From Microbacterium sp. 3J1 (lineage in GTDB: Bacteria > Actinomycetota > Actinomycetes > Actinomycetales > Microbacteriaceae): 64,000 nt of DNA. The DNA lies in NCBI RefSeq assembly GCF_001049495.1, contig NZ_CDWI01000011.1:992001-1056000 (forward strand), in the 5' to 3' direction. Positions 1,056-16,367 of this stretch are shown piece after piece. The notes under the pieces are model-generated. The model was given only the letters and a program-made list of their open reading frames with translations, searched no databases and was not told the DNA's origin. Position 1 is the first letter of the stretch. Each line of letters begins with the position of its first letter. Made by a program: the position numbers and the translations under genes.

Positions 1056-2930
1056 TCACGGGGTGACGATGTCGAATCCCGGGTCGCCCGTCGTCAGAAC
1101 GGACGTGAGTTCTCTCAGCGCCGCCGCGTCGCCGCTGATGTCCACTCCGGGTCCGTCCTGATCTCCACCGACGAGCGCAAGCAGGCGGGCTTTCGTCAGC
1201 GACAGGGTCGCCTGCGCCGACGCGGCATCCGCCGGCTTCTCGATGTAGACGAGAACTCCGTTGCGGACGGTCACCCGGAAGTTGCGTCCCTCATCGGTGA
1301 GGGTGAAGTCGATCGCGATGTCGAGGTCCCACGCGCGAGGGCCGTCGACCGAGATGGCGACCGAATCCAGGAGCTGCTCGGCCGTGAGCTGGGCGAGGAT
1401 CTCCGGGGCGTTCGTGGTCGTCGGGGTGCCGAAGTTCCCCGACCGGAGCTCGGTCGCGCCGGACATGTAGAAGTTGCGCCAGGTGCCGTTCTCGGCGCCG
1501 TAGGCGAGCTGATCGAGAGTCGACGCATAGAGCTCGCGCACCGCGGCGTTGGCCGGCTCGGTGAAGATGGCGTGATCGAGCAGCGTCGCCGCCCACCGGA
1601 AGTCCCCTGCGTCGTACGCTCCCTGTGCCGCGTCGACGATCCGGTCCATCCCGCCGGCCAGAGCGACGTACCGCTCCCCCAGCGCCTTCGGCGGATGCGG
1701 CCAGAGGCGCGCAGGGTTGCCGTCGAACCACCCCATGTAGCGCTGATATATCGCTTTCACATTGTGGCTGACGCTGCCGTAGTATCCGCGTGCATGCCAC
1801 GAGTTCTCCAGGATCGGAGGCAGCTGGATCTCCTCGGCGATCTCGGCGCCGGTCATCCCCTGATTCGTCATGCGGAGCGTCTGGTCGTGAAGATAGGAAT
1901 ACAGGTCCCGCTGAAGACCGAGGAACTCGAGAATCTCGGCGTTCCCCCACGTCGGCCAGTGATGCGAGGCGAAGACGACGTCCGCCTCGTCGCCGTATCG
2001 TTCGATCGCCTCGGTGAGGTATCTCGACCAGACATGCGGATCGCGGACCAGAGCTCCGCGGAGGGTCAGCAGGTTGTGGAGGGTGTGGGTCGCGTTCTCC
2101 GCCATGCAGAGCGCCCGGTATCTCGGGAACAGGAAGTGCATCTCGGCCGGGGCCTCCGTGCCGGGAGCCATCTGGAACTCGATGACGAGACCGTCGATCG
2201 TGTGGGACTCCCCCGTCTCCGCGACCTCGATCGTCGGCGGGATGATGCCGGCGTGACCGGTGGACGTCGTCTGTCCGAGTCCCGCACCGAGCGCGCCTTT
2301 CGCGCTGCGCTCGAGTGCTGCACCGTACATGTACCCGGCACGTCGTCCCATCGCGGTTCCCGCATAGACGTTCTCCGCGACGGCTTCGGCGACCGTTCCC
2401 TCGGGAGCGATGATCTGGACGCGGCCAGACTCGACATCGTCCTTCGACACGATGCCGAAGATCCCGCCGAAATGGTCGATGTGACTGTGGGTGAAGACGA
2501 CGGCGACCACAGGTCTCTCGCCCCGGTGCTCGCGGTACAACCCCAGCGCAGCCTGAGCCGTCTCCTTCGAGATCAGCGGGTCGATGACGATCACGCCGGT
2601 GTCGGACTCGACGAAGCTCACGTTCGACAGGTCGAATCCGCGCACTTGGTACACGCCCTCCACCACCTCGAACAGTCCGTGCTTCGAGACCAGCCGAGAT
2701 TGGCGCCACAGGCTCGGATTCACGGTGTCGGGAGCATCCCCGTCGATGAAGTCGTAGCTGTCGGCATCCCAGACCACGTTGCCGTCATCGTCGTGCACGA
2801 CGGCCGGGCTCAGCGTGCCCAGAAACCCACGCTCCACCGCCTCGAAATCCCGCGTGTCATCGAAGGGAAGTGCAGCCTTCAGATCCTCCTGCTGCTGCGT
2901 GATCGCCGCCGTCGCATCGTTCTGCACCAT
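1056..2930 (-). CDS. SdsA1/YjcS-type alkyl sulfatase (metallo-beta-lactamase fold)
   Basis: Predicted to hydrolyse primary alkyl sulfates such as dodecyl sulfate to the alcohol plus inorganic sulfate. With the start at 2930 the protein has 624 residues. That ATG has an AGGAGG box five bases upstream, whereas the open frame extends further upstream without one. The binuclear zinc site is complete by motif: THSHIDHFGG gives H148, H150, D152 and H153, followed by E259, E278 in AENATHT and H323 in ASHHWPTW. A dimerisation domain and an SCP2-like C-terminal domain (about the last 130 residues) fit the family. No signal peptide is seen, so it looks cytoplasmic, unlike secreted SdsA1. A SulP transporter gene lies directly upstream. 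Confidence 0.9.
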   Translation of the reverse strand: MVQNDATAAITQQQEDLKAALPFDDTRDFEAVERGFLGTLSPAVVHDDDGNVVWDADSYDFIDGDAPDTVNPSLWRQSRLVSKHGLFEVVEGVYQVRGFDLSNVSFVESDTGVIVIDPLISKETAQAALGLYREHRGERPVVAVVFTHSHIDHFGGIFGIVSKDDVESGRVQIIAPEGTVAEAVAENVYAGTAMGRRAGYMYGAALERSAKGALGAGLGQTTSTGHAGIIPPTIEVAETGESHTIDGLVIEFQMAPGTEAPAEMHFLFPRYRALCMAENATHTLHNLLTLRGALVRDPHVWSRYLTEAIERYGDEADVVFASHHWPTWGNAEILEFLGLQRDLYSYLHDQTLRMTNQGMTGAEIAEEIQLPPILENSWHARGYYGSVSHNVKAIYQRYMGWFDGNPARLWPHPPKALGERYVALAGGMDRIVDAAQGAYDAGDFRWAATLLDHAIFTEPANAAVRELYASTLDQLAYGAENGTWRNFYMSGATELRSGNFGTPTTTNAPEILAQLTAEQLLDSVAISVDGPRAWDLDIAIDFTLTDEGRNFRVTVRNGVLVYIEKPADAASAQATLSLTKARLLALVGGDQDGPGVDISGDAAALRELTSVLTTGDPGFDIVTP

Positions 2931-3016
2931 CGTCTCCTCCTGTGGTCTCCCCTGCGCCTCACGCCGGGTCATGCCTCTCAGCCTCGTGCGCCGGTGTCGA
3001 CCCCTCAAGCGCGGGC

Positions 3017-3033
3017 TCATCCTTCGGAGGTGA
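3017..3033. promoter_or_regulatory. Weak member of the 17-bp palindrome family
   Basis: TCATCCTTCGGAGGTGA has the same 7-3-7 layout and outer TCA/TGA ends as the clearer palindromes at 9610, 13929 and 13981, but the inner arm bases match imperfectly. It lies 87 bases upstream of the alkyl sulfatase start, in the gap after the SulP gene, where a promoter would be expected. On its own it would not be called. Confidence 0.3.
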
Positions 3034-3043
3034 GGGCGGAGCG

Positions 3044-4732
3044 TCACTCCACGCCGGCCTCGGCCTGGCGCCTCACCGCCTCGGCACGGGCGCGGAGGAC
3101 GGCATCGCCGACGCGCGCCTCTGCGGGGAAGACGTTTTCGCGGCCGATCTCCTCGCTGAGGCCCGTCATGCGCAACTGGGAGACCACGCGCTCCCCGACC
3201 CCGGCGACCATGAGCGTCGCACCGACGGCGGCCAGGTCGGCGGAGTACTTTCGGAGCATCGTGAGGAAGGTCACGCCGAGCTCATCGGTGCCGCGGAGCC
3301 GAACGATGACGTACGACTGGTGGGCGTCCTCACCGGCATCGGGCAGCTGTGCGCGAAACGCCTCGGACGAGGCGAAGAACAACGCGCCGTAGGGGTTCAG
3401 CACCACGATCTCTCGCGGTCCGATCGACTCGGGCGCGGGGAGTTCACGAGGACGCGTCTCCCCCGCGTCGAACTCCCACCTCGTGACTCTGACGCGGTTG
3501 GACTGGCGCGCGATGTGCAGGACGACCGCGAGTCCCACTCCCGCGAGAACGGCGTATTGGAGCGGGATGAACAACGTGAGCACGAACGTCACGAGGAAGA
3601 TCCCCGCCTGCACGGTGCCCGTCCTGAAGACCAGAGCGATCTGAGCGACCTTGACACTGCGGACTCCGACCACGATCAGCAGTCCCGCGAGAGCCGGCAT
3701 CGCGATGTAGCCGATCAGCGGGGCGAAGATCAGCACCGTCGCGATCATGACCATGGCGGCGAAGACGTTCGCCGTCGCCGTTCGGGCTCCGGCCGTGGCG
3801 ACGAGAGCCGTGGCCGACATCGACCCGCCGACCGGAATACCCTGCAGCATGCCGCTGGCGATGTTCGCGACTCCCTGACCTCGGAAGTCCGCCGAGGCGC
3901 TGGGATATCGGCCGTCGGGATTGGGCACGGACCCCGAGATCGCCGCCCCCTGCACGAGGCCGACGAGAGCGAGCGACAGAGCAGGGACGATCAGGTCGAA
4001 CGCCAGGAGCAGACTCGGCCAGGTGAGGGACGGAAGCTGCCGTTCTATCGTCGCGACCTCCCCGATCGTGGCGACAGCACCGTCCGGCAGCAGAAAGGCG
4101 ACCAGCGATCCTGCGATGATCGCGACCACCATCGAGAGGGCCCCGAGAGGCGTTCTCTCCAACAGCAGGATGAGCGCGACGGTGAGGAGTCCGACGAGCA
4201 GCGACCACCAGCTCACCTGCGGCAGATGGAGGAGGGTGTCCCCCGCGCGGCCGATACGGGATCCTGCGTCGCTCTGGTAGCCCGTGAGATTCTCGATCTG
4301 GCTGAGGACGATGTTCACCGCAACAGCGTTCACGAAGCCGAAGAGCACGGCGCTCGGAATGAAGCGGACCAGGCTCCCCGCTCCCGCGAGGCCCAGACCG
4401 AGCATCACGATGCCCGCCATGACCGTGAGAGTGGCGATCGCTGTCGCCGAGCCCTCGCCGTGCACCTGTGGCACGTCTCCGATGATGACGGCCATCGCCC
4501 CTGTCGCTTGGACCGTCATGAGAACCGATCCCGTCGTCAACGCACCGGCGAGTGTCCCGACGATGTACGCATTGAGCCCGAACAGCGGATTGACGCCCGC
4601 GAGCACTCCTGCCGCCAGGCCGTCGGGGATGCTCTCCACACCGAGGACCACTCCGGCTCGCAGATCCTGTCGAAGCGTGGCGCGCGAACCGAAGCGCTTC
4701 CGGTAGCGCCGCCAGGAACGACGCAGGTTCAC
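3044..4732 (-). CDS. SulP family anion transporter with STAS domain
   Basis: Integral membrane transporter, 562 residues, of the SulP family (sulfate, bicarbonate or other anions). The N-terminal two thirds are a run of hydrophobic helices with the family's conserved segments (SIPDGLAAGVLAGVNP near residue 35). The last ~130 residues form a STAS domain (EIVVLNPYGALFFASSEAF onward). I take the GTG at 4732 as start: it overlaps the stop of the upstream GAP gene in a GTGA, so translation is probably coupled. It is one of two SulP genes within 7 kb. Lying just upstream of an alkyl sulfatase, it may move the sulfate released, but bicarbonate is equally possible. Confidence 0.85.
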   Translation of the reverse strand: MNLRRSWRRYRKRFGSRATLRQDLRAGVVLGVESIPDGLAAGVLAGVNPLFGLNAYIVGTLAGALTTGSVLMTVQATGAMAVIIGDVPQVHGEGSATAIATLTVMAGIVMLGLGLAGAGSLVRFIPSAVLFGFVNAVAVNIVLSQIENLTGYQSDAGSRIGRAGDTLLHLPQVSWWSLLVGLLTVALILLLERTPLGALSMVVAIIAGSLVAFLLPDGAVATIGEVATIERQLPSLTWPSLLLAFDLIVPALSLALVGLVQGAAISGSVPNPDGRYPSASADFRGQGVANIASGMLQGIPVGGSMSATALVATAGARTATANVFAAMVMIATVLIFAPLIGYIAMPALAGLLIVVGVRSVKVAQIALVFRTGTVQAGIFLVTFVLTLFIPLQYAVLAGVGLAVVLHIARQSNRVRVTRWEFDAGETRPRELPAPESIGPREIVVLNPYGALFFASSEAFRAQLPDAGEDAHQSYVIVRLRGTDELGVTFLTMLRKYSADLAAVGATLMVAGVGERVVSQLRMTGLSEEIGRENVFPAEARVGDAVLRARAEAVRRQAEAGVE

Positions 4733-5445
4733 GCGAGCCAGCCCTGGACGGCCCTGAAGAGCTGCAGCATCCCCACCGCCGCGAAGATCCCCGCGCTCAG
4801 GTACCCGTTGTGGCGGAGCATCCACGAGCGAAGCCGCGTGAGGAGCGGATCCGCGCCGTCACCCCGTGCGAGCACCGTGAAGACGGGAATGGCCACGGGC
4901 GCCGCAGACGCCACGACGAAGCCGATCATCGTGGGAACGGCCTGGCGTGGTGGGAGGTCAGCGATGACGATCTCGATCCCGGCCGCAGCGACGAGCGCGA
5001 TGTTCATGGGGCTGAGGAAGATGGCGAGACCGAGGAGGAAGGCCCGTCGAGGCGTGTAGCCCTCCACCGATCGCACGATCCCGGGGAGCTGCGGGGCCGC
5101 ATGCACCACTTCTCCGGGTGTGTGAGCGCCCGCCACTTCCGCCACGACCCTTCTGGAGCGCGCGAACGTCCAGACCGCGCCCCCGACGCAGACGACGCCG
5201 ACGACAGCGTGGACGATGGGCACCCACTCGGCCTGACGATAGGCGCCCGACGCTCCTGCCGCGCGGAATCCGATGACGCTCACGACGGTCAGAACACTGG
5301 AGCAGAGCACCCATCCGAGGAGATACGCGGTTCCGATGCGCCGCGCATCGCGGGACAGGAGGATGCCGATCAGAGCCATGACCGCCACCGGGCTCGCCAT
5401 CACTCCGAGAGCGACGGGGACGAGCTGCCAGACGGTCGGGATCAT
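4729..5445 (-). CDS. GAP family (Sap/SfLAP-like) membrane protein
   Basis: This 238-residue protein has about six hydrophobic helices. Its N-terminus (VPVALGVMASPVAVMALIGI) is characteristic of the actinobacterial GAP/Sap family, which in mycobacteria contains the sulfolipid-1-addressing protein. It is presumed to be a small-molecule or lipid exporter in the cytoplasmic membrane. The substrate is unknown. It sits 6 bases after the upstream membrane-protein gene and overlaps the SulP gene by four bases, so it is part of the same minus-strand operon. Confidence 0.7.
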   Translation of the reverse strand: MIPTVWQLVPVALGVMASPVAVMALIGILLSRDARRIGTAYLLGWVLCSSVLTVVSVIGFRAAGASGAYRQAEWVPIVHAVVGVVCVGGAVWTFARSRRVVAEVAGAHTPGEVVHAAPQLPGIVRSVEGYTPRRAFLLGLAIFLSPMNIALVAAAGIEIVIADLPPRQAVPTMIGFVVASAAPVAIPVFTVLARGDGADPLLTRLRSWMLRHNGYLSAGIFAAVGMLQLFRAVQGWLA

Positions 5446-5451
5446 CAGTCG

Positions 5452-6918
5452 TCACCCGCGGTGGACCGGTGATGCGGACGACGTCTCGCGCTGCACGGAG
5501 TTCGTCCCCGGCACAGAGTCCGTCCCCGGCACGGAGTCCGTCCCCGGCACGGCGTCCGTCCCCGGGAGGGGGTCCTCGCCGTGAGTGGCGTCCGTTTCGG
5601 GGCGGCGCAGCAGCTCGAGAACCACGATCAGCCCGAGCAGGCCGAGAGAGACCCCGATGACCGAGCCCGCGGAGACCGGTCGGTTCGCGATCAGAACCAT
5701 CACCGCGAGGATGGCGGCCACCACCACGATCACGGGCCTGGATCTCTCGACGGCCACCCCGAGCCGTCCGGTGGTGACTCCTCGGCGCTCCCAGAGACTC
5801 CGGACCGACGCGAAGCCGCTTCCGACGACAGCCCTGGTCGTGGTGGCCGCGCGACCGGAACCGCTCAGCCACGCCCACAGTGCCGCCACCACGGCACCGA
5901 GGGTCAGAGCCACGGCGGTGCTCTGCAACGCCTCGGAGATCTGAGAGAACACCACGCTCGCGGCTTCCGCAGGCATGATCGCCGGGCTCACCGCGGAGAT
6001 GAACACGGTTCCGCCGATCACGATCCCGCCGGCCAGCAGCCCGAAGACGAGTGCGAAACCGATGCTCGTCCGGACCGTTGCTCGAAGGCGGTCCCGGGAC
6101 AGGAGGATGCCCCCGAACGTGAGCGCGACGATGAGCCACGGCAACCAGAATCCGGTCGCCACCGCGATCTGATAGATGGTGCGGACCAGTACCAGGGCGT
6201 CTGCCTGCGCGATCGGGATCGACCTGTCGACGATCGGGATGAGATCGGCGAAGCCGACCCCACGATCTGCGAGTTCCTCCTTCGCCCGCTCGACGACGAC
6301 ACCGAGGTCGATGGAGATCACCCCGCCGCCGTCGAGCTGGATGGCGATGTCGGGGTCGCTCTGCATCACCGCGACGGCGCGGTCGTGGGTGAACCTCAAA
6401 GCCTCGGTCCAGATGGCGGCGAACTGTTCCGAGGCCACGAGGTCGCGCACGATGCTGTCTATCAACGAGGAGATCCCCTGGGCCGCCGGAGTCTCCAGGA
6501 TCGTCAGGGCGGCTTCCGCTCTCGGAGCGAGATCGAGGTCGCGGATGCCGTCGAAGACGTCGCCGACCAACGCCTCGACGTCCAGCTGATCATCGATCGC
6601 ATCGATGACCTGGTCGGAGATGAAGTCCTGCACGTCCGGATCTTCGGCGAGCGGGGCGAAGGACGCCACGAACTGCTCGGTCTCGACGAGCTGGATACGG
6701 GCCCAGGTGCCGACCGCTGCGATGGGGGCGAGCAGTACCGCCAGGGCGAGCATCGCCCCGGCGGTCACGCTGCGCCCGGAGAAGCGACGCTGCCGCGGTG
6801 ATCGGAGTGCGGAGTTCTCCTCTTCCAGAGAGCGGATCCTCGACCTCAGGTCTTCAATCGCTCTCGCCTGTGCGTCGTCGTCGGGGGCCGCTGCGGGTGG
6901 TGAATCCTTCGCCTGCAT
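5452..6918 (-). CDS. Multi-pass membrane protein with N-terminal coiled coil and hexapeptide-repeat tail
   Basis: A 488-residue protein of unknown function, of a type common in actinobacteria. Residues 18-40 are a charged heptad segment (AIEDLRSRIRSLEEEN). A first membrane helix follows at about 50-72. Next comes a ~190-residue extracytoplasmic-looking region rich in acidic residues, then four or five further helices. The last 45 residues are low-complexity with four PGT(D/N)(S/A)V hexapeptides encoded by an 18-bp tandem repeat. It starts two bases after the stop of a 35-residue membrane peptide and lies in the SulP/SHOCT/DUF6325 operon. Confidence 0.65.
   Translation of the reverse strand: MQAKDSPPAAAPDDDAQARAIEDLRSRIRSLEEENSALRSPRQRRFSGRSVTAGAMLALAVLLAPIAAVGTWARIQLVETEQFVASFAPLAEDPDVQDFISDQVIDAIDDQLDVEALVGDVFDGIRDLDLAPRAEAALTILETPAAQGISSLIDSIVRDLVASEQFAAIWTEALRFTHDRAVAVMQSDPDIAIQLDGGGVISIDLGVVVERAKEELADRGVGFADLIPIVDRSIPIAQADALVLVRTIYQIAVATGFWLPWLIVALTFGGILLSRDRLRATVRTSIGFALVFGLLAGGIVIGGTVFISAVSPAIMPAEAASVVFSQISEALQSTAVALTLGAVVAALWAWLSGSGRAATTTRAVVGSGFASVRSLWERRGVTTGRLGVAVERSRPVIVVVAAILAVMVLIANRPVSAGSVIGVSLGLLGLIVVLELLRRPETDATHGEDPLPGTDAVPGTDSVPGTDSVPGTNSVQRETSSASPVHRG
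5503..5570 (-). repeat. 18-bp tandem repeat inside the 3' end of the membrane protein gene
   Basis: The unit CGTCCCCGGCACGGAGTC occurs three times (5503-5520, 5521-5538, 5539-5556) with one or two substitutions, then partially from 5557. It is in frame and encodes PGTDAV, PGTDSV, PGTDSV and PGTNSV at the C-terminus. The near-identity at the DNA level suggests recent slippage expansion. Copy number may vary between strains. Confidence 0.85.
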
Positions 6919-6919
6919 C

Positions 6920-7027
6920 TCATCGTCTCCGTCTCTGCGCCATGAGGACCGCAGTGATGACGGCGATGACGGCCATGACCACTGCGACGGCGGCCAGCGC
7001 GATGCCGGCGATCACTATCGCATCCAT
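6920..7027 (-). CDS. 35-residue single-helix membrane peptide
   Basis: A very short gene: ATG at 7025-7027, TGA at 6920-6922. The product begins MDAIVIAGIALAAVAVV, is almost entirely one hydrophobic helix and ends in QRRRR, predicting an inserted helix with a positively charged cytoplasmic tail. A clear GGAGG lies about nine bases upstream of the ATG, and the stop is two bases from the next gene's ATG, so it is embedded in the operon. The strong ribosome binding site and tight packing argue that it is real. Function unknown; small helices like this often bind a larger membrane partner. Confidence 0.65.
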   Translation of the reverse strand: MDAIVIAGIALAAVAVVMAVIAVITAVLMAQRRRR

Positions 7028-7065
7028 AGGAGAGCTCCTCCCGTCCCCCGGGTTCTCGCGTCCGA

Positions 7066-7404
7066 TCAGCCGAGGATCTTCTGCTTGGCGGCGGCGAACT
7101 CGGCATCGGAGAGGACTCCCGAGTCCCGCAGCGAAGCGAGCTGTTGAAGCTTGGTCACCATGTCGTCACCAGAGTTGTCCGGAGCGGCGGCCGGTGCATA
7201 CTGTGCCGCAGCCTGCTGCGCCGCCGCATCCACCTGTGCCTGCTGTTGTGCGGCCTCGTACTGCTGCTGCTCGTACTGGCCCTCTGCACGACGCTGCTGA
7301 TTCCTCGTCGCAGCGCCCTGCACAGCGGATGCCGTGCCGGCGACGACAGCTGTACGCGCGGCGAGCCCGATGAGCCCCGGTCGGCCGAATCTTCTCAATG
7401 GCAT
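7066..7404 (-). CDS. SHOCT-domain protein with glutamine/alanine-rich linker
   Basis: A 112-residue protein. Residues 9-30 form a weakly hydrophobic helix (GLIGLAARTAVVAGTASAV), residues 34-70 are very rich in Gln and Ala, and the last 31 residues form a SHOCT domain (MVTKLQQLASLRDSGVLSDA), a short C-terminal helical pair thought to mediate oligomerisation. It lies four bases after a DUF6325-type gene. A second SHOCT protein is encoded at 9737 on the other strand. Function unknown; the domain call is firm. Confidence 0.8.
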   Translation of the reverse strand: MPLRRFGRPGLIGLAARTAVVAGTASAVQGAATRNQQRRAEGQYEQQQYEAAQQQAQVDAAAQQAAAQYAPAAAPDNSGDDMVTKLQQLASLRDSGVLSDAEFAAAKQKILG

Positions 7405-7407
7405 GTC

Positions 7408-7839
7408 TCATTCCCCTTCTTGTTCAAGGATCTCCATCAGTGCGTTCACGACGGGCGCCGCGATCCGCTCCGTCCGCAGGACCTCTCCCCCGGCACTGTT
7501 CAACTTCCGGGCCAGTTCGCGCGCATACGTCAGCTCGAGCACGACGATCGCCGCTGACCGACCGGCAGGCACGTTCGCGGCCAACGTGAGGATGTCCTCC
7601 TCGCCGGCCAACCCGGAAGCGAAGACCTCCACTCCCTCGAGGGCGGTCGCCGATTGTTCGTCGATCGCCTGGATGTCCACCGCGCCGTCCTCGGACTTCG
7701 TGATGACGACGAAGTCCAACAGGCGCACCGTGCCGCTGTCGATCAGGTCCCGCAGAGCGGCGAAAGTCCCTTCGTCGGGGACGACCCCGTCGAAGCCCAC
7801 GAGATAGAACTCGGCAGGGCCGTACTGAAAATCAGTCAT
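7408..7839 (-). CDS. DUF6325-type protein, copy A
   Basis: This 143-residue soluble protein is acidic, with a predicted alternating alpha/beta pattern. It contains VRLLDFVVITK near residue 38, an IDEQ box, EEDILTLAANVP and an AAIVVLELTY strand. The same landmarks in the same order occur in the protein encoded at 10146-10580 (LRLVDFLIV, IDEQ, REDAMTLCADLP, AALILVEPTW), so the two are paralogues. The family is usually named DUF6325 and is found beside SHOCT proteins. Its start overlaps the SulP gene end by eight bases, indicating cotranscription. No biochemical function is known to me. Confidence 0.75.
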   Translation of the reverse strand: MTDFQYGPAEFYLVGFDGVVPDEGTFAALRDLIDSGTVRLLDFVVITKSEDGAVDIQAIDEQSATALEGVEVFASGLAGEEDILTLAANVPAGRSAAIVVLELTYARELARKLNSAGGEVLRTERIAAPVVNALMEILEQEGE

Positions 7840-9529
7840 GTGTAGATGCCTCTCTCTCCTGTCGCCCGGAGGCCGGCGACGACCCCTGACGTTCGGTCAG
7901 CGCCGCGACTGCGGCCCGATTGGTCTCGAACACCTCTCGGTCGCCCAAGAGGCCGAGGGTCTCGAATCGCGGTCGTGCGGCAGGCCGCAGGCGGCTGAAC
8001 GAGAGCGTCAGCCCTCTCGCAGCCAGCCAGTCCGCGAGGCTCTCGAATGACTCTGCTGCGGTGACGTCGGCGTCGGTCACTGCCTCCATGTCGATCACCA
8101 CGTGTCGCACCGCGCCGGAGCCCGCCGCTTGCACAGCGGAACGGACGGCGGAGGCGAACACGTCCCCGTTCGCGAAGAACAGCGGCGCAGCCATCCGGAT
8201 CACCAGAACGCCGGGCGCCGTCACCTTTCCGGGCGGAGCGTCCTCCAGCAGCGAGGCAGACGGTTCGTTCTCGGCCGAGAGGATATCGATCGCGGGGTTC
8301 GACGCTCGGCGGGCGATGTTGATCAACGCGAGCACGAAGGCGATCAGGATGCCGGGTATCGACCCGACGAACAGCGTCACGAGGAAGCACACGGCTCCGA
8401 TGACGAACTCGAACCGGTCGAGCTTCCAGAGCGTCCGGAACTCGCCGATTCCCAGCAGCGGCAGGATCGCGACGCCGACGATCGCGCCGATGGCGGGCGA
8501 GGGGATGTCCTCCAGCAGTCCCGTCCCGAAGAGCAGCAGCAGGAGAGTGCCGCCCGCCAGCACCAGCGACGGGAGCTGCGTGCGGGATCCCGCCTGGTCC
8601 ATCGCCGCTGTGCGGCTCGTCGACGACCCGACGGCGAAACTGCCTTGCGCGCCGGCCGCGATGTTGGCGACGCCGAATGCGAACAGATCCCGATTGGGAC
8701 TCGTGGCGTAGTGACGCTTCTCGCCGTAGGAACGAGCGACGAGGAGCCCCTCGGCTGTCGTGACCATCGTGAGGGCCATCGCGGACGGCACCAGGAGCAA
8801 CCAGGTCTGCCAATCGATCACCGGCCATGTCAGGGTGGGTGGCCCTGCCGGGACCTCTCCGAGCACGGCGACGCCCCGCTCGTCCAACCCGGTCATCAGC
8901 ACGACGACGGTCGCGACGACCATGACCACGAGTGCCCACGGCACCGCCCTCAGCAGATTCTTCCCGAGAAGCAGGATCGTGACGGAGACCACCGAGATCA
9001 TCAGCGACCATCCGTTGAGGGTGCCGATCCCGCTCACGAGATCCGCGACCTTCTCCACGAACTCTCCGCCGGAATCGATCGACACGCCGAGCATCTTGGC
9101 GATCTGGGAGACGAGGATGTCCAGGGCCAGTCCGCCGACGAATCCGATCAGGATCGGCTTGGAGAGGAAGTTCGCGAGGAAGCCGAGTCTGAACACGGAC
9201 AGAAGGATGAACATCACTCCGCAGATGATCGCCTGGGCGAGTGCCAGCGTGAGGTAGTCCTCGGATCCCGCTGCGGCCAGTCCCCCGATCGACGAGGCGA
9301 CGAGCGCCGCCGCGGCTGCGTCGGGAGAGGCCACGACCTGTCGCGAGGAGACGACGAGGACGTACAGGATCGTCGGGATGACCAGCGCGTACAGTCCTGC
9401 GGTCGCAGGCAGACCGGCGATCTGGGCATAGCCGATGTTGAGCGGGATCGCGATAGCGAGCAGCGTGACGCCCGCGGTCAGTTCACGCACGAGGTTCTGA
9501 CGAGTGACACCGACCAACGGTTTCTGCAC
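7832..9529 (-). CDS. SulP family anion transporter with STAS domain, second copy
   Basis: The product is a 565-residue membrane transporter of the SulP family. The hydrophobic helices begin near residue 12 (LTAGVTLLAIAIPLNIGYAQ), include the family's QIAGLPATAGLYALVIP segment and end near residue 405. A STAS domain follows (VLVIRMAAPLFFANGDVFAS to FETLGLLGDREVF). It differs clearly from the SulP at 3044 and is not a recent duplicate. It is first in the minus-strand operon leading through DUF6325, SHOCT, the small peptide and two more membrane proteins. The 207-base gap upstream is shared with a divergent SHOCT gene and holds two palindromes. Likely substrates are sulfate or bicarbonate. Confidence 0.85.
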   Translation of the reverse strand: MQKPLVGVTRQNLVRELTAGVTLLAIAIPLNIGYAQIAGLPATAGLYALVIPTILYVLVVSSRQVVASPDAAAAALVASSIGGLAAAGSEDYLTLALAQAIICGVMFILLSVFRLGFLANFLSKPILIGFVGGLALDILVSQIAKMLGVSIDSGGEFVEKVADLVSGIGTLNGWSLMISVVSVTILLLGKNLLRAVPWALVVMVVATVVVLMTGLDERGVAVLGEVPAGPPTLTWPVIDWQTWLLLVPSAMALTMVTTAEGLLVARSYGEKRHYATSPNRDLFAFGVANIAAGAQGSFAVGSSTSRTAAMDQAGSRTQLPSLVLAGGTLLLLLFGTGLLEDIPSPAIGAIVGVAILPLLGIGEFRTLWKLDRFEFVIGAVCFLVTLFVGSIPGILIAFVLALINIARRASNPAIDILSAENEPSASLLEDAPPGKVTAPGVLVIRMAAPLFFANGDVFASAVRSAVQAAGSGAVRHVVIDMEAVTDADVTAAESFESLADWLAARGLTLSFSRLRPAARPRFETLGLLGDREVFETNRAAVAALTERQGSSPASGRQEREASTHD

Positions 9530-9609
9530 GTCGTGACCTCCGGCCTCCTCGCCCCACGTGGCGAACTGCCCTCATGCTCGCATCCGGTGGTGCGCCCGCA
9601 CCGGCACGA

Positions 9610-9626
9610 TCACCCCAACGGGGTGA
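9610..9626. promoter_or_regulatory. Perfect 17-bp palindrome, operator candidate
   Basis: TCACCCCAACGGGGTGA has perfect 7-base arms around AAC. It lies in the divergent promoter gap, 81 bases upstream of the SulP start and 111 bases upstream of the plus-strand SHOCT gene. The same arm pattern recurs at 13929 and 13981. It is not followed by a T tract and lies between gene starts, not gene ends, so an operator is more likely than a terminator. The LAL-type regulator at 10600 is the nearest candidate ligand. Confidence 0.55.
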
Positions 9627-9648
9627 GCGTCAGGCACCGGCCACTCGG

Positions 9649-9665
9649 TCGCCCGCTGAGGGTGA
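9649..9665. promoter_or_regulatory. Imperfect second palindrome of the 17-bp family
   Basis: TCGCCCGCTGAGGGTGA aligns with the palindrome family (TCACCC-N5-GGGTGA) except for G at position 3 and a non-pairing G at position 7. Its centre is 39 bases from the centre of the perfect copy at 9610-9626. Paired sites also occur at 13929 and 13981. It is 72 bases upstream of the SHOCT gene start at 9737. Confidence 0.35.
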
Positions 9666-9736
9666 GGCTCGGCCCCGGCCGCAACGACACGATGCCACGA
9701 TCGCACCACGCAATACCTCGACCGTTAGGAGTAGTC

Positions 9737-10123
9737 GTGTCCATCTGGGAAAGCTTCTGGGCCATCATGTGGTGGTTCCTCTGGGCGTTCGTGTTCGTTT
9801 CCTACCTCATGGTGCTGTTCGGCATCATCGCCGACATCTTCCGCGACCATGCCCTGAACGGGTGGGCCAAGGCCGCCTGGATGCTCTTCCTGGTCTTCGT
9901 CCCGTTCCTGACGGCTCTGGTCTACCTCATCGCCCGTGGTGGAGGGATGGCGGAGCGGGGCGCGTCCGCGGTGCAGCAGAACCGGGAAGCCACGGATTCG
10001 TACATCCGATCCGTCGCCGGAGCGAGCCCCAGCGACGAGATCGACAAGGCCTCCAAGCTCCTGGCCTCGGGTGCGATCACGAACGAGGAGTTCGCATCCA
10101 TCAAGGCCCGCGCGCTCAGCTGA
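9737..10123 (+). CDS. PLDc_N/SHOCT two-helix membrane protein
   Basis: The 128-residue product starts at a GTG preceded by TTAGGAG. Two hydrophobic helices (about 8-32 and 45-68) resemble the PLDc_N membrane module. A linker and a C-terminal SHOCT domain follow (DEIDKASKLLASGAITNEEF). The same SHOCT module ends the protein at 7066, though the rest differs. The next gene, 22 bases on, is a DUF6325 paralogue. This strand therefore repeats the SHOCT plus DUF6325 pair seen on the minus strand. Possibly a membrane scaffold; function unknown. Confidence 0.8.
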   Translation: MSIWESFWAIMWWFLWAFVFVSYLMVLFGIIADIFRDHALNGWAKAAWMLFLVFVPFLTALVYLIARGGGMAERGASAVQQNREATDSYIRSVAGASPSDEIDKASKLLASGAITNEEFASIKARALS

Positions 10124-10145
10124 GTCGGTGCAGGGGGCAGCCGCC

Positions 10146-10580
10146 ATGTCGGATCGTGCACTCCACGACGTCGTCGTGCTCGTCGTGCGCCTCGACAGCG
10201 ACCGCCCCCGCCCGGCCGTGCTCGAGGCGCTGCTGCAACAGGTCGAATGCGGCGTGCTGCGGCTCGTCGACTTCCTCATCGTCCGTCGGAACCGACAGCC
10301 GGGTAGCTTCGACTACGTCGAGATCGACGAGCAGACCTTCGGCCTCGCCGGACTGCGACCAGGGGTACCCGGCCTGGTGAGTCGGGAGGACGCGATGACG
10401 CTCTGCGCCGACCTTCCCGTGAACGGCACCGCGGCACTGATCCTGGTCGAGCCGACGTGGCTCGAACGATTCTCGTCGGAGCTCAGGAGGCACGGAGCGG
10501 ACGTTCTCTCCGCGCAGCCGATCACCGCCTCCCACGCGAACTCCGTCTGGCTGACCGCTGCGACGACGGAGGCGCCCTGA
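10146..10580 (+). CDS. DUF6325-type protein, copy B
   Basis: 144 residues from the ATG at 10146, which has a G-rich stretch (CAGGGGGC) as ribosome binding site. It shares the core layout of the protein at 7408-7839: LRLVDFLIV, EIDEQ, SREDAMTLCADLP and AALILVEPTW. It follows the SHOCT gene closely and probably forms a two-gene transcript with it. The 3' end faces the regulator gene tail-to-tail with a 19-base gap and no clear terminator hairpin. Function unknown. Confidence 0.7.
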   Translation: MSDRALHDVVVLVVRLDSDRPRPAVLEALLQQVECGVLRLVDFLIVRRNRQPGSFDYVEIDEQTFGLAGLRPGVPGLVSREDAMTLCADLPVNGTAALILVEPTWLERFSSELRRHGADVLSAQPITASHANSVWLTAATTEAP

Positions 10581-10599
10581 CTGCTCGCCTCTCCCCCAC

Positions 10600-13158
10600 T
10601 CACACGGTCGTGTGCACAGCCTCCCGACGAGAGGTGACGCCGAGCTTCCGGTAGATCGCACGCTGATGAGTCTTGACGGTGTTGATCGAGAGCTCGAGCT
10701 CATCCGCGATCTCGGGCAGTGTCCGGGAGGTCTGCAGTTGCCGGAAGACGTCACGCTCCCGCTCCGACAGGACCGCGACGAGGGATCCGCTCCCCTCCGA
10801 CGCCAGGCATCGCCCGATAAAGTCCTCGTACTGACTGCCGAAGTGCACGTGTTCGCTGAGCAGCTTGCGGATCGCCGTCTCACGGTGCGCGAACAGGAGC
10901 GTCACGTTCTCGCCCGAGGCCACGGCGAGGCCGGCCTCGCACAGCTCGTGCGCGGCCTCGTGATCACCGGCGTGGCGCCGCATGACGGCCGCAGTCATGA
11001 GGGTGGCCGCCTTCACGTACGACACCTCTGAGAACAGCCTGAGCGAGCGCAAGGTCTGCAGAGCCTCGGCGTGATTGCCGTCGCGCCGCAGGATCCCGCT
11101 CATGGCGACTGCGACGACCGGGAGGTTCGGGCACTGCACATACTTCCGCGCGATCCGAACCGCCCGTTCGTGGTTGCCGCTCGTCTCTTCGAGGAGCGCG
11201 ATCGACGATTCGCGGAACATGTGCCAGGGTACGCCATGCAGTGTCTCGATCGGGATCTCCTGGATGCCTATGGCCGCCCTGCGGCTCCGCGGCCCGTCTC
11301 CCGTCTCTGCGACGCTGTAGGCGATCATCATCCGTGCTATCGCGGAGAAGGAAGGATCGGGGAATCCGCTCTGGAGTATCGCCTCGTAGGCGCTCACGCA
11401 CCGCGCGGTATCGCCCGCCCAATAGGCGACGAAGCCGGACGCCGCCCAGGCGCTTCCGCTTGCATAGGCCGAGGACAGCGGCGGCATGTGGGGATGGCCG
11501 ATGGACCGCAGGGTCGACTCAGCCGCCCTCAGGTGCCCTGCCCACGTCTGGGCGAACGCCAGATGCCCGGACGCGCGCACGGATGCTGCGGACGCCGGCT
11601 CGCCTGCGAACTCCCGTGACGCCGACGCGAAGTACTCCGCGGGAAGCTCCGGGTTCGAGGGAATCCGTATCTCCGCCCAGCCGAGCAGGGTGTTGATCGC
11701 GATTCTGCTGGCGGCTGTCCTCGGGTCGCCGGCAGCGAGCATCCCGCGCAATCGTGTGGCAGCGCGCGACACGAGAAGCGGATCGTTGCAGACGAAGAGC
11801 CGTGCGATGTCCGCGATCACCGAACGATCGGACCCCGTCGTCCGGGCGGGCTCCTGTTCGGCCCGCGTCATGATCTCGCGAGCGAGGTGATGCCCGCCGA
11901 GCAGATCGGTGGCGCAGGCCAGGATGAACGGGAGGTCCGCATCCTGCGGTGCGTCGCGCATCAGCAGCGTGACGGCACGCTCGACCTCCTCTCCGTTCCC
12001 CTCCATGATGAGCGCCACCCAGTGCCCGAAGAGCGTTGCTCTCGCGCCGTCCGTGTCTCCCGCGAGCAGGGAGTGCTGGATGGAGCTCAACTGGTCGGTG
12101 TCCTCCAGGAAGGCCGCCGCTCGACGATGGCATGCGGCCGCACGTTCCGGATCCGCTCGCCGGATGTCCGCGCACGTCCGGACGAACGAGCTGTGCCATT
12201 GATAGACCATCCCATGAGGCCCGGAGAAGCGGTCGAGGAAGAGCCCGAGCGCCACGCACTCGTCGAGGAGCGCCGCGGCGTCCGGCCGCGCCGACACGGC
12301 CGCCGCCAGGGCTGGGGTGAGCTCGATGCACACGGTGGTATCGAGGACGAAGTCCGCGATACCGGGCGGGAGAACGCTGAGGATGTGGTCGCGAACGTAG
12401 TCGCCCAGGAACTCCGACGCCGTGGCGGCGCCCGAGTCGGGCCGTCGCCCGCCGATGAGGACCATCCGCACCGCGATCGGCCACCCCTGCGTCTCTTCGA
12501 ACACGCTCGTGTGCTCGAGACTGCGCCCCTGCGCCGTGTCGTTCAGAGTCCGCATCAACGCCGCGACCTCGTCGGCCGTGAAACGGAGCTCTCGGGACCC
12601 GACGAACATCTCCGGTTGCAGCAGCCGTTCCCGGGACATCGTGATGTCGAGGAGGGTCGTTCCGATCAGCAGCACGCGAATCATCTCCGGCGGCTGGTCG
12701 ACGAGCATCCCGAGGATGCTTCGACGCCAGTGCTCCCCTGCGCGATGGGCGTCGTCGACGATGAGAGTCACGCGGATGCCGGCGGCTGCGGTCGCGTCGC
12801 TCAGCGCGGCGTACAGCGCACGCGGGGTCATCTGATCGTCGAGTCGGGGCAGACTGTGGCGTGCTCGTCGGTAGGACGCCGAGAGGGCATCGATGACTCC
12901 GCGCTGCAGGCGCGTCTGATCGATGTCCAGCGCGTTGAGGAGCAACCACGCCGGCTCGCCCTGAGCCGCGGCCCAGTCGGCGACCGCCGTCGTCTTGCCG
13001 TAACCGCTCGGCGCGCTCACCACCGCGACCGATCTGCTCTCGAGCGCAGCGTCGATGGCGGCGCTGAGTCGAGGGCGTGGGAGTGAGCCCGGCTGAGGGG
13101 TCGGCGGCCGGAACCGCACGGAGGGGATGTGTTCGGTCAGACGTCTGGCGGCCGTCAT
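10600..13158 (-). CDS. LAL/MalT-type LuxR family transcriptional regulator
   Basis: A large ATP-dependent regulator, 852 residues from the ATG at 13158 (the frame stays open to 13230, but homology-like sequence begins near 13158). A Walker A motif SAPSGYGKT lies at about 48-56 and a Walker B LIVDDAH about 90 residues later. A long helical TPR-like middle follows. The last ~60 residues are a LuxR helix-turn-helix (LSERERDVFRQLQTSRTLPE, ending VKTHQRAIYRKLGV). MalT-like proteins bind ATP and an inducer, multimerise and activate target promoters. It lies in the centre of the accessory region and is the natural candidate to act at the repeated palindromes; this link is inference. Confidence 0.9.
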   Translation of the reverse strand: MTAARRLTEHIPSVRFRPPTPQPGSLPRPRLSAAIDAALESRSVAVVSAPSGYGKTTAVADWAAAQGEPAWLLLNALDIDQTRLQRGVIDALSASYRRARHSLPRLDDQMTPRALYAALSDATAAAGIRVTLIVDDAHRAGEHWRRSILGMLVDQPPEMIRVLLIGTTLLDITMSRERLLQPEMFVGSRELRFTADEVAALMRTLNDTAQGRSLEHTSVFEETQGWPIAVRMVLIGGRRPDSGAATASEFLGDYVRDHILSVLPPGIADFVLDTTVCIELTPALAAAVSARPDAAALLDECVALGLFLDRFSGPHGMVYQWHSSFVRTCADIRRADPERAAACHRRAAAFLEDTDQLSSIQHSLLAGDTDGARATLFGHWVALIMEGNGEEVERAVTLLMRDAPQDADLPFILACATDLLGGHHLAREIMTRAEQEPARTTGSDRSVIADIARLFVCNDPLLVSRAATRLRGMLAAGDPRTAASRIAINTLLGWAEIRIPSNPELPAEYFASASREFAGEPASAASVRASGHLAFAQTWAGHLRAAESTLRSIGHPHMPPLSSAYASGSAWAASGFVAYWAGDTARCVSAYEAILQSGFPDPSFSAIARMMIAYSVAETGDGPRSRRAAIGIQEIPIETLHGVPWHMFRESSIALLEETSGNHERAVRIARKYVQCPNLPVVAVAMSGILRRDGNHAEALQTLRSLRLFSEVSYVKAATLMTAAVMRRHAGDHEAAHELCEAGLAVASGENVTLLFAHRETAIRKLLSEHVHFGSQYEDFIGRCLASEGSGSLVAVLSERERDVFRQLQTSRTLPEIADELELSINTVKTHQRAIYRKLGVTSRREAVHTTV

Positions 13159-13255
13159 GGCCCCAAGGTAGCGATATACCGGAGCTTTCTCAATGAGTTC
13201 TCCGCCGCACTCGATGTCACGTGCGGTCATTCCGCGCCGGGCGAGTGTCGCGAGG

Positions 13256-13885
13256 TCAGATCTTGACCGGGAAGGTGAGCAGCACGATCATTCCGGCGAC
13301 GCCGAGTATCGACGCGAGAGCGAGGAAGGTGTATCGCCGCCAACTGAGTCGCTGCGATTGCGACAGAGCCGCGAAGAACAGGACGAGCGCGAACAGGACC
13401 GTCAGAAGGGAGTAGTTGTCGCCTCGCTGGTTGTTGACCAACGCCTCCTCGAACTTCTGGTCCGCGCGATCGGCGAACTCAGCGGCCTCCGTGGTTCCGG
13501 GCGGGACGTACTCCTCCATCGCGAACGGTCCGGACTCGGTCCTGCCGCCGTCGTCCCACGCGTCGAACGCGACCGCGAACGCGTCGGAGAAGCGCTCCTC
13601 GATGTACTGGGACAGTGCCTCGTCGCCATCGGCCTGTGCGAGCACCCACTGGGTATAGATGCTCAGGTCGTACTGGCGCGCCGCCTGCGCCTCCCCCTGT
13701 GCGGATGCCGCCTGTATGCGCGCGCTGGACGCCTGGCTGAACGCGATCGACATCTCTCCTCCCCACTTGGATGCCTCGAATCCGCTCCATGCCGTGAGCA
13801 CCGCCGTCAGGGAGAGGATCACGACTGTGGTCACCTCGACGAGACGTCGTGGTTTCGGGTCATGTACTGGTCGGTCCGTCGCCAT
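13256..13885 (-). CDS. DUF4337-like membrane protein
   Basis: 209 residues from the ATG at 13885; the open frame extends upstream, but the residues there are not protein-like. A first helix at about 15-34 (VEVTTVVILSLTAVLTAWSG) is followed by a soluble, partly coiled-coil region rich in Ala and Gln, then two helices near 160 and 187. The VILSLTAVLTAWSGFEASKW pattern resembles DUF4337-type proteins, of unknown function. It is divergent from the AI-2E-type transporter gene across a gap with two palindromes. Confidence 0.65.
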   Translation of the reverse strand: MATDRPVHDPKPRRLVEVTTVVILSLTAVLTAWSGFEASKWGGEMSIAFSQASSARIQAASAQGEAQAARQYDLSIYTQWVLAQADGDEALSQYIEERFSDAFAVAFDAWDDGGRTESGPFAMEEYVPPGTTEAAEFADRADQKFEEALVNNQRGDNYSLLTVLFALVLFFAALSQSQRLSWRRYTFLALASILGVAGMIVLLTFPVKI

Positions 13886-13928
13886 CTCTTCATTCTTCGG
13901 TGGCGCGCCACTCGGTGAGGTCCGCGAG

Positions 13929-13945
13929 TCACCCGGGGCGGGTGA
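13929..13945. promoter_or_regulatory. Perfect 17-bp palindrome, operator candidate
   Basis: TCACCCGGGGCGGGTGA has perfect 7-base arms around GGG. The arms extend by one more pair (G...C) to 13928-13946. It lies 43 bases upstream of the DUF4337-like gene start. Its centre is 52 bases from the next copy at 13981, about five helical turns, so two bound dimers could face the same side of the DNA. Confidence 0.55.
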
Positions 13946-13980
13946 CCCGAAGACTGTGCGCGACAGGCGGGCACGGCTGA

Positions 13981-13997
13981 TCACCCTGAGAGGGTGA
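13981..13997. promoter_or_regulatory. Perfect 17-bp palindrome, operator candidate
   Basis: TCACCCTGAGAGGGTGA has perfect 7-base arms around GAG. It lies 19 bases upstream of the GTG at 14017 and 52 upstream of the alternative start at 14050 of the AI-2E-type transporter gene, so it would overlap that gene's promoter or leader. Third clear member of the family after 9610 and 13929. Confidence 0.55.
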
Positions 13998-14016
13998 CGG
14001 CCGAGAGGCGACTCGC

Positions 14017-15156
14017 GTGACTCGCCACGCGCGCAGCTACTCTGAGCACGTGATCCAGTCTCCGAGGGGTGCAGCGGAGAGGCGTCTCCGGTCGGGTTCC
14101 GGAGCTCTCGTCTCTCTCGGGTGCGCGGTTCTCGTCCTCCTCGGGGTGCATCTGGCGCGCAGCGTCGTGGCGCCGCTCGCGCTGGCGATCGTCGTGGTGA
14201 TCATCTGCCTGCCGATCGGCGAGGCGGTCGCGCGACGTGCCGGCCACCGGTGGGTGGGAACCACGGCGATCATCGTCCTCGCCTACGGCGTCGTCCTCGC
14301 GGCCGGTGCCCTCATCTGGCTCGCCGCGGGACAGTTCGCGGGTCTGATCGCGGATCTGGGGCCCGGGGGCGCGCTCGATCATGTGCGAGACTCCCTCCGA
14401 TCGTGGGGTGCGGCGGTCTTCCACGGCGATGTCGGCGGCGCTCAGCCCGACCTCTCCGTCCTGCTCGACATTCTCGAGACCGCCACATCGGCCCTCGTCT
14501 CGGCCGTGGTCGCCCTGTTCTTCGTCTGCGCGTACGTCGTCGTCATGGCCGTCGACGCGGGTCGGTACGCCGGTGCCGCCGACCTCTACGGATCATCGCG
14601 GGCGGGAACGATCGCTCGCGCGAGGCGGCTCAATCAGAGCATCCGTCGCTATTACCTCGTGAACGGGGCGTTCGGAGCGATCGTCGCGACCATCGACGGG
14701 CTCGCCCTCTGGATGCTCGGCGTCCCGGCACCCGTCGTGTGGGCGATCCTGGCCTTCGTGACGAACTTCGTGCCGTCGATCGGCTTCGTCATCGGGGTGA
14801 TACCGCCCGCCGTGCTGGCTCTCGCCATCGGAGGGTGGCCCCTCTTCCTCGGGGTGATCGCCGTCTACAGCACCGTGAATGTCGTGCTGCAGGTCTTTCT
14901 GCAGCCGAAGTTCGTGAGTGATGCGGTCGGCCTGAGCCTGACGGTGAGCTTCTTCGCCGTCGTCTTCTGGACCTTCGTGATCGGCCCTGTCGGGGCGATC
15001 CTCGCCGTCCCGCTGACGCTCCTCGCGAGAACCCTGCTGTTCGAAGGCAGAGCCGACATGACGTGGTGGCGGTGGCTGTCCGGCGACGACCAGGCGTCTT
15101 CGGAGGACCCGTCGCAGGTGACGGCTATCGGGCGGACTGCCGCAGCGGAACCGTGA
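14017..15156 (+). CDS. AI-2E family transporter (PerM/TqsA-like)
   Basis: A 379-residue membrane protein with about seven or eight helices. The pattern is that of the AI-2E transporter family: two N-terminal helices, a soluble segment with LNQSIRRYYLVNGAFGAIVA in the middle, and LAFVTNFVPSIGFVIGVIPP followed by a QPKFVSDAVGLS segment. Members export signals, ions or are uncharacterised; no substrate can be given. The GTG at 14017 has GAGAGG eight bases upstream; the GTG at 14050 is an alternative. Its 3' end overlaps the convergent ATPase gene by 32 bases. Confidence 0.85.
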   Translation: MTRHARSYSEHVIQSPRGAAERRLRSGSGALVSLGCAVLVLLGVHLARSVVAPLALAIVVVIICLPIGEAVARRAGHRWVGTTAIIVLAYGVVLAAGALIWLAAGQFAGLIADLGPGGALDHVRDSLRSWGAAVFHGDVGGAQPDLSVLLDILETATSALVSAVVALFFVCAYVVVMAVDAGRYAGAADLYGSSRAGTIARARRLNQSIRRYYLVNGAFGAIVATIDGLALWMLGVPAPVVWAILAFVTNFVPSIGFVIGVIPPAVLALAIGGWPLFLGVIAVYSTVNVVLQVFLQPKFVSDAVGLSLTVSFFAVVFWTFVIGPVGAILAVPLTLLARTLLFEGRADMTWWRWLSGDDQASSEDPSQVTAIGRTAAAEP

Positions 15157-16219: not shown

Positions 16220-16288
16220 GCTTCCTCCACATGGTGCGGCCGGTTCTGCGGCACCTCTCTGTCTAGCGACCCGATGCACGATCGCACC

Positions 16289-16319
16289 CCGCGCCTCACC
16301 CCTCGAGGATGAGGCGCGG
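16289..16319. promoter_or_regulatory. Long hairpin containing a variant of the 17-bp palindrome
   Basis: Ten perfectly paired bases (CCGCGCCTCA / TGAGGCGCGG) flank an inner segment. The core at 16296-16312, TCACCCCTCGAGGATGA, keeps the 7-3-7 layout of the palindromes at 9610, 13929 and 13981 with two arm mismatches. It lies between the divergent ATPase and MFS starts, so it is unlikely to end either transcript. Its longer stem makes a structured leader or protein-binding site equally possible. Confidence 0.4.
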
Positions 16320-16367
16320 AGTGCAGCCGCGATCGGCGAGGTCCTGCAGCAGGAGTAGCGTTGAGGG

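Follow-up and report, generated by a model that had tools for sequence, protein, structure and literature searches.

A putative LAL-type regulon, marked by one palindromic operator, joins alkyl sulfatase, SulP and DUF6325/SHOCT genes in Microbacterium sp. 3J1

The gene block and its palindrome

Near the start of a 64,000-nucleotide stretch of the Microbacterium sp. 3J1 genome (contig NZ_CDWI01000011.1, positions 992,001 to 1,056,000; the window, to which all coordinates below refer) lies a block of about 17 kb (about 1056-17693) that brings together genes for an alkyl sulfatase, two SulP anion transporters, proteins with SHOCT and DUF6325 domains and a large LAL (MalT-type) regulator. A putative operator, the palindrome TCAYCC-N5-GGRTGA, is present in every promoter gap of the block, in weaker form before the alkyl sulfatase gene. 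In this 3.40-Mb genome the palindrome is nearly confined to the block, and in other genomes of the class it marks the same gene families, as judged from sequence comparison.

On the minus strand, transcription would run through SulP1 (7832-9529), DUF6325 protein a (7408-7839; PF19850, E 4.2e-27), a SHOCT protein (7066-7404; PF09851, E 1.1e-8), a hydrophobic 35-codon open reading frame (ORF) that is a putative gene (6920-7027), a large membrane protein (5452-6918; an ORF with no Pfam family), an SfLAP/GAP-family membrane protein (4729-5445; PF11139, E 1.4e-27) and SulP2 (3044-4825), whose start codon is uncertain (4825, 4789 or 4651). These genes overlap or stand at most 38 bases apart when the 35-codon ORF is counted; without it, the SHOCT and large membrane protein genes are 147 bases apart. 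The alkyl sulfatase gene (2930-1056) continues the run 113 bases past SulP2. On the plus strand, a PLDc_N-SHOCT membrane protein recognised by Pfam (9737-10123, GTG start) is followed by DUF6325 protein b (10146-10580; PF19850, E 3.7e-10), and then, on the minus strand, come the LAL regulator of 876 amino acids (10600-13230) and, just upstream of it, an ORF for a membrane protein (13256-13885) with homologues in 10 of the loci compared below. Beyond this ORF lie an AI-2E family transporter (14017-15156, plus strand; PF01594, E 8.4e-33), a HerA-like ATPase (DUF87; 15125-16219, minus strand; PF01935, E 9.9e-11) and an MFS transporter (16368-17693, plus strand; PF07690, E 1e-33).

An initial annotation had drawn the block from SulP2 to the last ORF upstream of the LAL gene, and all the genes that it named were found in their places through ORFs and Pfam matches. 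The membership that it proposed was too narrow, since the SdsA1-type alkyl sulfatase and the AI-2E, HerA-like and MFS genes had been missed. The ORF at 13256-13885, which it called DUF4337-like, is present as described; its name is unverified, as a Pfam scan placed it in no family.

The palindromes that the same annotation reported as shared between promoter gaps are real. The common form, the 17-bp TCACCC-N5-GGGTGA, was first seen as like inverted repeats in two divergent gaps. Exact copies number three in the genome, all in the two divergent promoter gaps of the block: one between SulP1 and PLDc_N-SHOCT (9610-9626) and two upstream of the AI-2E gene (13929-13945 and 13981-13997). The palindrome read backwards, used as a control, has none. 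A second site in the SulP1/PLDc_N-SHOCT gap (9649-9665) has one mismatch, as does TCACCC-N5-GGATGA between the HerA-like and MFS genes (16296-16312), and the weak site TCATCC-N5-AGGTGA (3017-3033) lies 87 bp before the alkyl sulfatase start. When up to one mismatch is allowed, the genome holds 15 matches against two for the backward control, and the window holds six where 0.21 would be expected, all but one of the six lying in the block. The relaxed form TCAYCY-N5-RGRTGA matches six times in the genome, five times in the block (including 3017-3033), with none for its control; the sole match outside the block lies at G000:C11:793509-793525. With a position weight matrix (PWM) trained on 64 sites, the window's own sites left out, the six best matches of the 64 kb all fall in the gaps of the block. 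Random sequence with the window's base-to-base make-up (60 runs) gave best matches averaging 12.9 with a maximum of 21.2, so that the sites at 3017 (15.0, sixth in rank) and 9649 (16.5) are not significant by PWM score alone.

The operator in related loci

DUF6325 was present in 64 of 297 genomes of the order and in 78 of 296 of the class. The main comparison covered 111 loci, made up of the window, 40 stretches from the order (mostly the best-scoring) and the best 80 of 87 relatives, less ten duplicates; a further 20 loci from 18 class-level genomes outside the order, chosen by the authors, brought the total to 131. These loci are related by descent and the p-values below therefore overstate significance. 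Their genes were called with our own codon-usage script, by which start codons and small genes are placed approximately.

Among 4096 x 13 gapped hexamer palindromes, the motif ranked first in the 111 loci, being found in 21 of them against 11 for the next pattern. Exact copies were intergenic in 29 of 32 cases, where intergenic DNA makes up 9.8% of bases, and copies with at most one mismatch in 71 of 83. Nine permuted or re-spaced controls yielded no intergenic exact copies, against 30 for the motif, and between zero and two copies with one mismatch, against 71. In the outside-order set the motif again ranked first, with 20 intergenic copies in seven loci, and a site was found in all nine loci with an LAL gene as opposed to one of the 11 others. 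A chance palindrome is rejected by the excess over expectation in the window, the first rank and the empty controls in related loci.

The genes that follow the site directly are largely those of the block. In the 111 loci it stands immediately upstream of SulP in 15 of 52 cases, DUF6325 in 18 of 116, PLDc_N-SHOCT in 10 of 37, LAL in 9 of 37, AI-2E in 6 of 51, alkyl sulfatase in 2 of 9, type I sulfatase in 5 of 21 and the small-protein cluster c39 in 8 of 11, and of other genes in 15 of 1110. Across all 131 loci, LAL genes occur in 33 of 43 loci with the site and 9 of 88 without, c39 in 15 of 43 and 1 of 88, and homologues of the large membrane protein in 13 of 43 and 1 of 88. The association is weaker for SulP (22/43 and 25/88), DUF1269 (8/43 and 4/88), DUF7144 (10/43 and 5/88), the sulfatase-modifying FGE (8/43 and 4/88, p 0.02) and alkyl sulfatase (6/43 and 3/88, p 0.06). 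The cluster names type I sulfatase, FGE, ClC, MscS, DUF1254/DUF1214, DUF7144, ion channel, MFS and polyketide synthase each rest on one representative scanned with Pfam; single representatives of the c39 and DUF4337-like clusters matched no Pfam family.

In genomes picked for their exact sites, 22 of 25 fetched copies were intergenic in seven genomes with DUF6325 above its cut-off, compared with 4 of 15 in nine genomes with no DUF6325 or a sub-cut-off match only, by a tally made by hand on a subset of the copies.

The co-occurrence of many of the genes in other genomes, which the initial annotation had named as the test of its view of one regulated machine, is thus observed, and the operator common to these genes both supports and sharpens that view. 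The open-licence literature yielded no report of the operator. The opposite view, that the block is a hot spot where unrelated transport genes gather without a shared function, draws on the gene content, which differs much from locus to locus; the operator common to both sets of loci and its preferred spacing within promoters (described below) leave it very improbable.

Promoter spacing and the candidate regulator

The operator stands a median of 77 bp before start codons in the 111 loci, its targets including SulP, DUF6325, PLDc_N-SHOCT, LAL, sulfatase and other genes. A -10-like hexamer, TAnnnT, begins 23 bases past the site in 11 of 162 downstream sequences, when the maximum at any offset in 1000 shuffles was five. 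Because this hexamer is over-represented at one fixed distance, the operator would occupy about -51 to -35, next to or over the -35 region. Such a position is that of an activator adjoining RNA polymerase.

The LAL protein is the best candidate for the binder of the operator. It carries a C-terminal GerE/LuxR helix-turn-helix domain at residues 820-873 (PF00196, E 7.8e-15), and it is the only gene of the block among the 18 GerE matches of the genome. In its N-terminal part the AAA_22 and AAA_16 matches both fall under the Pfam cut-offs, and the best stretch against the MalT model (residues 35-426) is partial and likewise under the cut-off. The candidacy rests on this unique GerE gene and on the likeness of the half-sites to those of two known regulators, MalT and BldM. 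As in MalT and other LAL regulators, the GerE domain is C-terminal, and the half-site GGRTGA resembles the MalT box GGA[TG]GA given in one report (PMC9628970). The fit to that core holds only for the rarer GGATGA form, and the inverted repeat with a 5-bp spacer differs from the short MalT motif, as do the target genes. No open-licence paper was found that pairs the sequence GGGGAKGAGG with MalT.

The second likeness is to BldM, which we take to carry a GerE-type domain. According to a Streptomyces study (PMC4125116), BldM binds TCACcC/GgGTGA half-sites, as mapped by footprinting, and its homodimers bind the 16-bp palindrome TCACcCgnncGgGTGA and activate the Group I regulon. The half-sites are thus shared, as would be a palindrome bound by a homodimer and activation, while the spacer is 4 bp in the BldM site and 5 bp in the operator of the block. 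BldM is described there as a developmental response regulator of the orphan type, and its targets, whiB and ssgR among them, are unlike those found here (PMC4125116). The 4-bp form has no intergenic exact copy in the 111 loci, against 30 for the 5-bp form, and its two copies in this genome both lie outside the block; identity of the operator with the BldM site was rejected on the spacer.

The operator might nevertheless belong to a response regulator like BldM or to a different GerE protein, with the LAL gene no more than a controlled neighbour. The shared half-sites are in favour of this, and two further observations that count against the LAL protein point the same way: each of the 17 further GerE matches in the genome is a potential binder, and 10 of the 43 loci with a site have no LAL gene. 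Against it stand the copy numbers of the 4-bp form, the tendency of site and LAL gene to go together and the nine of 37 LAL genes that have the site directly upstream, and we regard this alternative as unlikely. The dependence is also imperfect in the other direction, nine of the 88 loci without a site holding LAL genes; among these, two encode short LuxR-type proteins (L082 and L107), five contain sites that are variant or overlap, and no site in L048 or L070 scores above 8. The locus L226 has no LAL gene, yet a variant site precedes its DUF6325 gene. In Rhodococcus erythropolis, locus L129 brings LAL, PLDc_N-SHOCT, DUF6325 and SHOCT genes together with a variant site. Moreover, the -10-like hexamer appears in a minority of sequences only. 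On balance, the LAL protein likely binds the operator as a dimer, by way of its GerE domain, and acts as an activator of the promoters, a mode of action to which the fixed distance of TAnnnT points. These data suggest an LAL/GerE-type regulon that has an operator and a gene set of its own. The one-base difference in spacer from the BldM site makes it a good case for how related regulators separate their targets.

The c39 proteins are small (mostly 65-90 residues) and are encoded near LAL genes, with the operator between the two in several loci; they were seen in L046, L061, L076, L080, L131, L136, L144, L148, L228, L229, L231 and others. They are possibly partners or sensors for the LAL protein.

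Proteins encoded in the block

The alkyl sulfatase is clear by homology. It matches PSdsA (4nur) with E 2.7e-197 and SdsA1 (2cfu) with E 1.3e-164 in phmmer, aligns with PSdsA over the THSHxDH stretch, and has full-length homology with the metallo-beta-lactamase, dimerisation and C-terminal domains of the SdsA1 type (Pfam Lactamase_B, Alkyl_sulf_dimr and Alkyl_sulf_C); activity on primary alkyl sulfates is predicted. Unlike the known SdsA1 and PSdsA enzymes, it shares a putative operator with SulP, SHOCT and DUF6325 genes. SulP1 and SulP2, which are 26% identical, both carry the Sulfate_transp and STAS domains of the SulP/SLC26 family, SulP1 having solved SLC26/SulP relatives, and both score under the NCBIfam cut-offs for sulP, DauA and BicA.

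The initial annotation read the SHOCT and DUF6325 genes of the two strands as one repeated pair. This is true of the DUF6325 proteins, which are 30% identical; the two SHOCT proteins do not align, are by their sequences unrelated outside the short C-terminal SHOCT domain that they have in common, and their duplication was rejected, so that the claim was overstated. The 35-residue helix that was also counted in the operon exists as an ORF; in the two relatives inspected no counterpart lies between the SHOCT and large membrane protein genes, and it was rejected as a conserved part of the block. The large membrane protein gave a poor structure model, with a predicted local distance difference test (pLDDT) score of 60. 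Its C-terminal tail of PGTDSV repeats was not seen in the homologues compared.

DUF6325 was named in no open-licence paper found. The AlphaFold2 model of DUF6325 protein a (mean pLDDT 89.7) had no Foldseek match in the PDB with E up to 0.001, a second look with VIA gave no Z of at least 5 (best Z 3.5 over 77 residues at 3.6 A), and a DUF6325 profile found nothing among PDB sequences up to E 1. In hhalign, DUF6325 aligned with DUF1269, represented by five DUF1269-like neighbours of which two are Pfam-confirmed, with probability 92.6 and E 4.6e-7, and DUF1269 genes also neighbour DUF6325 in several loci. A Pfam scan of DUF6325 gave no DUF1269 match, and the glycine-rich hydrophobic stretch is absent by eye. 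DUF6325 is probably a soluble relative of DUF1269 and a partner of the SHOCT protein encoded alongside it. SHOCT follows next after DUF6325 in 118 of 140 cases. In one gene (L070:12489-13061), our own profiles, with E-values from a two-sequence search, place DUF6325 (residues 12-148) and SHOCT (154-190) in a single protein, in which Pfam detects neither.

One source proposes that SHOCT-like domains hold proteins at the inner membrane face, and such domains occur in PSP envelope stress systems as in the block (PMC11237479); a Pfam scan of 15 proteins from the block found neither the PspA nor the PspC family. In another report, oligomerisation through the SHOCT domain was tested with a negative result (PMC3581485). 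No open-licence paper was found that joins the SHOCT domain with SulP.

Gene linkage and proposed function

Linkage was assessed in 38 of the 64 genomes with a match (among those left out was the whole group g14), with 129 SulP match pieces merged by hand to 102 genes, two weak fragments dropped and a single genome size of 4.1 Mb for all expectations. SulP lies within 10 kb of DUF6325 in 17 of 102 cases against 0.9 expected, and alkyl sulfatase within 5 kb of SulP in 5 of 22 against 0.1, so that both linkages are well above chance. One locus (L135) repeats the window order of DUF6325, SHOCT, large membrane protein, SfLAP and alkyl sulfatase, minus SulP2. Among the open-licence papers listed for SfLAP, for alkyl sulfatase with Actinobacteria or SulP and for DUF1269, nothing on the block came up.

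Taken together, it seems fairly probable that the block forms a single regulon under one operator, with the LAL protein as its activator, in which sulfate-ester hydrolysis and anion transport are joined to membrane-associated DUF6325/SHOCT proteins. An LAL dimer would occupy the palindrome through its GerE domain and switch on the promoters; the SdsA1-type enzyme would free sulfate from alkyl sulfates, a role that type I sulfatases with FGE may fill in other genomes; the two SulP proteins would move an anion; and the SfLAP, AI-2E, large membrane, SHOCT and DUF6325 proteins would act at the membrane. From these predicted roles we infer that the regulon may handle sulfate esters and anionic membrane stress. 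The initial suggestion of anion transport or envelope stress is plausible, and the interpretation as a whole is partly supported, its weight shifting to sulfate-ester handling because the missed alkyl sulfatase belongs to the block. Families of unstudied role (DUF6325, DUF1269, SHOCT and the large membrane protein) thereby gain an operator, a likely regulator and a list of fellow targets.

Several observations weaken this account. Only 4 of 22 alkyl sulfatase genes have DUF6325 within 10 kb, and 18 of the 38 DUF6325 genomes lack the enzyme, so that its hydrolysis of sulfate esters is not obligatory. AI-2E and PLDc_N-SHOCT are equally common in the 131 loci with or without a site, SfLAP is not significantly commoner with it, no site was seen in the 20 loci that carry a type III polyketide synthase-like gene, and one genome with DUF6325 (G130) has both its exact sites inside genes. 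Other genes headed by the site encode a cation P-type ATPase, a Na/H exchanger, ThrE and PLD enzymes, among them a PLD/cardiolipin-synthase-like protein, which fit a broader ion and envelope role. A general ion-balance and envelope-stress regulon, which sulfatases would join only occasionally and for which the signal would be something other than sulfate esters, also finds support in the ClC, mechanosensitive-channel and ion-channel clusters near DUF6325 (one Pfam-confirmed representative each) and in a Rhodococcus plasmid with a cation:proton antiporter three genes before DUF6325-SHOCT. It accounts less well for the sites directly upstream of type I and alkyl sulfatases and for the commoner FGE, and ClC is in fact rarer with the site (3/43 vs 20/88) and the MscS cluster no commoner (5/43 vs 8/88). 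This broader explanation has a considerable chance of being right, somewhat below even; the combined sulfate-ester, anion and membrane role is favoured, with the acknowledgement that a general ion and envelope response fits the other targets at least as well.

A bolder version of the favoured role would be a defence, common to the actinobacterial class, that is directed at anionic surfactants and other sulfate esters, in which the LAL protein senses them, perhaps aided by c39 in other genomes, and one operator drives hydrolysis, anion export and a membrane-shielding complex of DUF6325 and SHOCT proteins. We put this forward as speculation that is rather unlikely in its entirety.

DUF6325 and SHOCT genes also occur in other settings. 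Four distant plasmid records carry DUF6325; two were inspected, the second of them without annotation. The pair lies beside a type III polyketide synthase-like operon, with no operator, in L042, L085, L096, L099, L111 and others, mostly Agromyces where named, the representative being Pfam-confirmed. In a Leifsonia group (L109, L112, L120, L132, L137, L138 and L145) the pair sits, again with no operator, within a conserved purine-synthesis stretch, an assignment made from three Pfam-confirmed proteins of L109, and there it may have a separate role.

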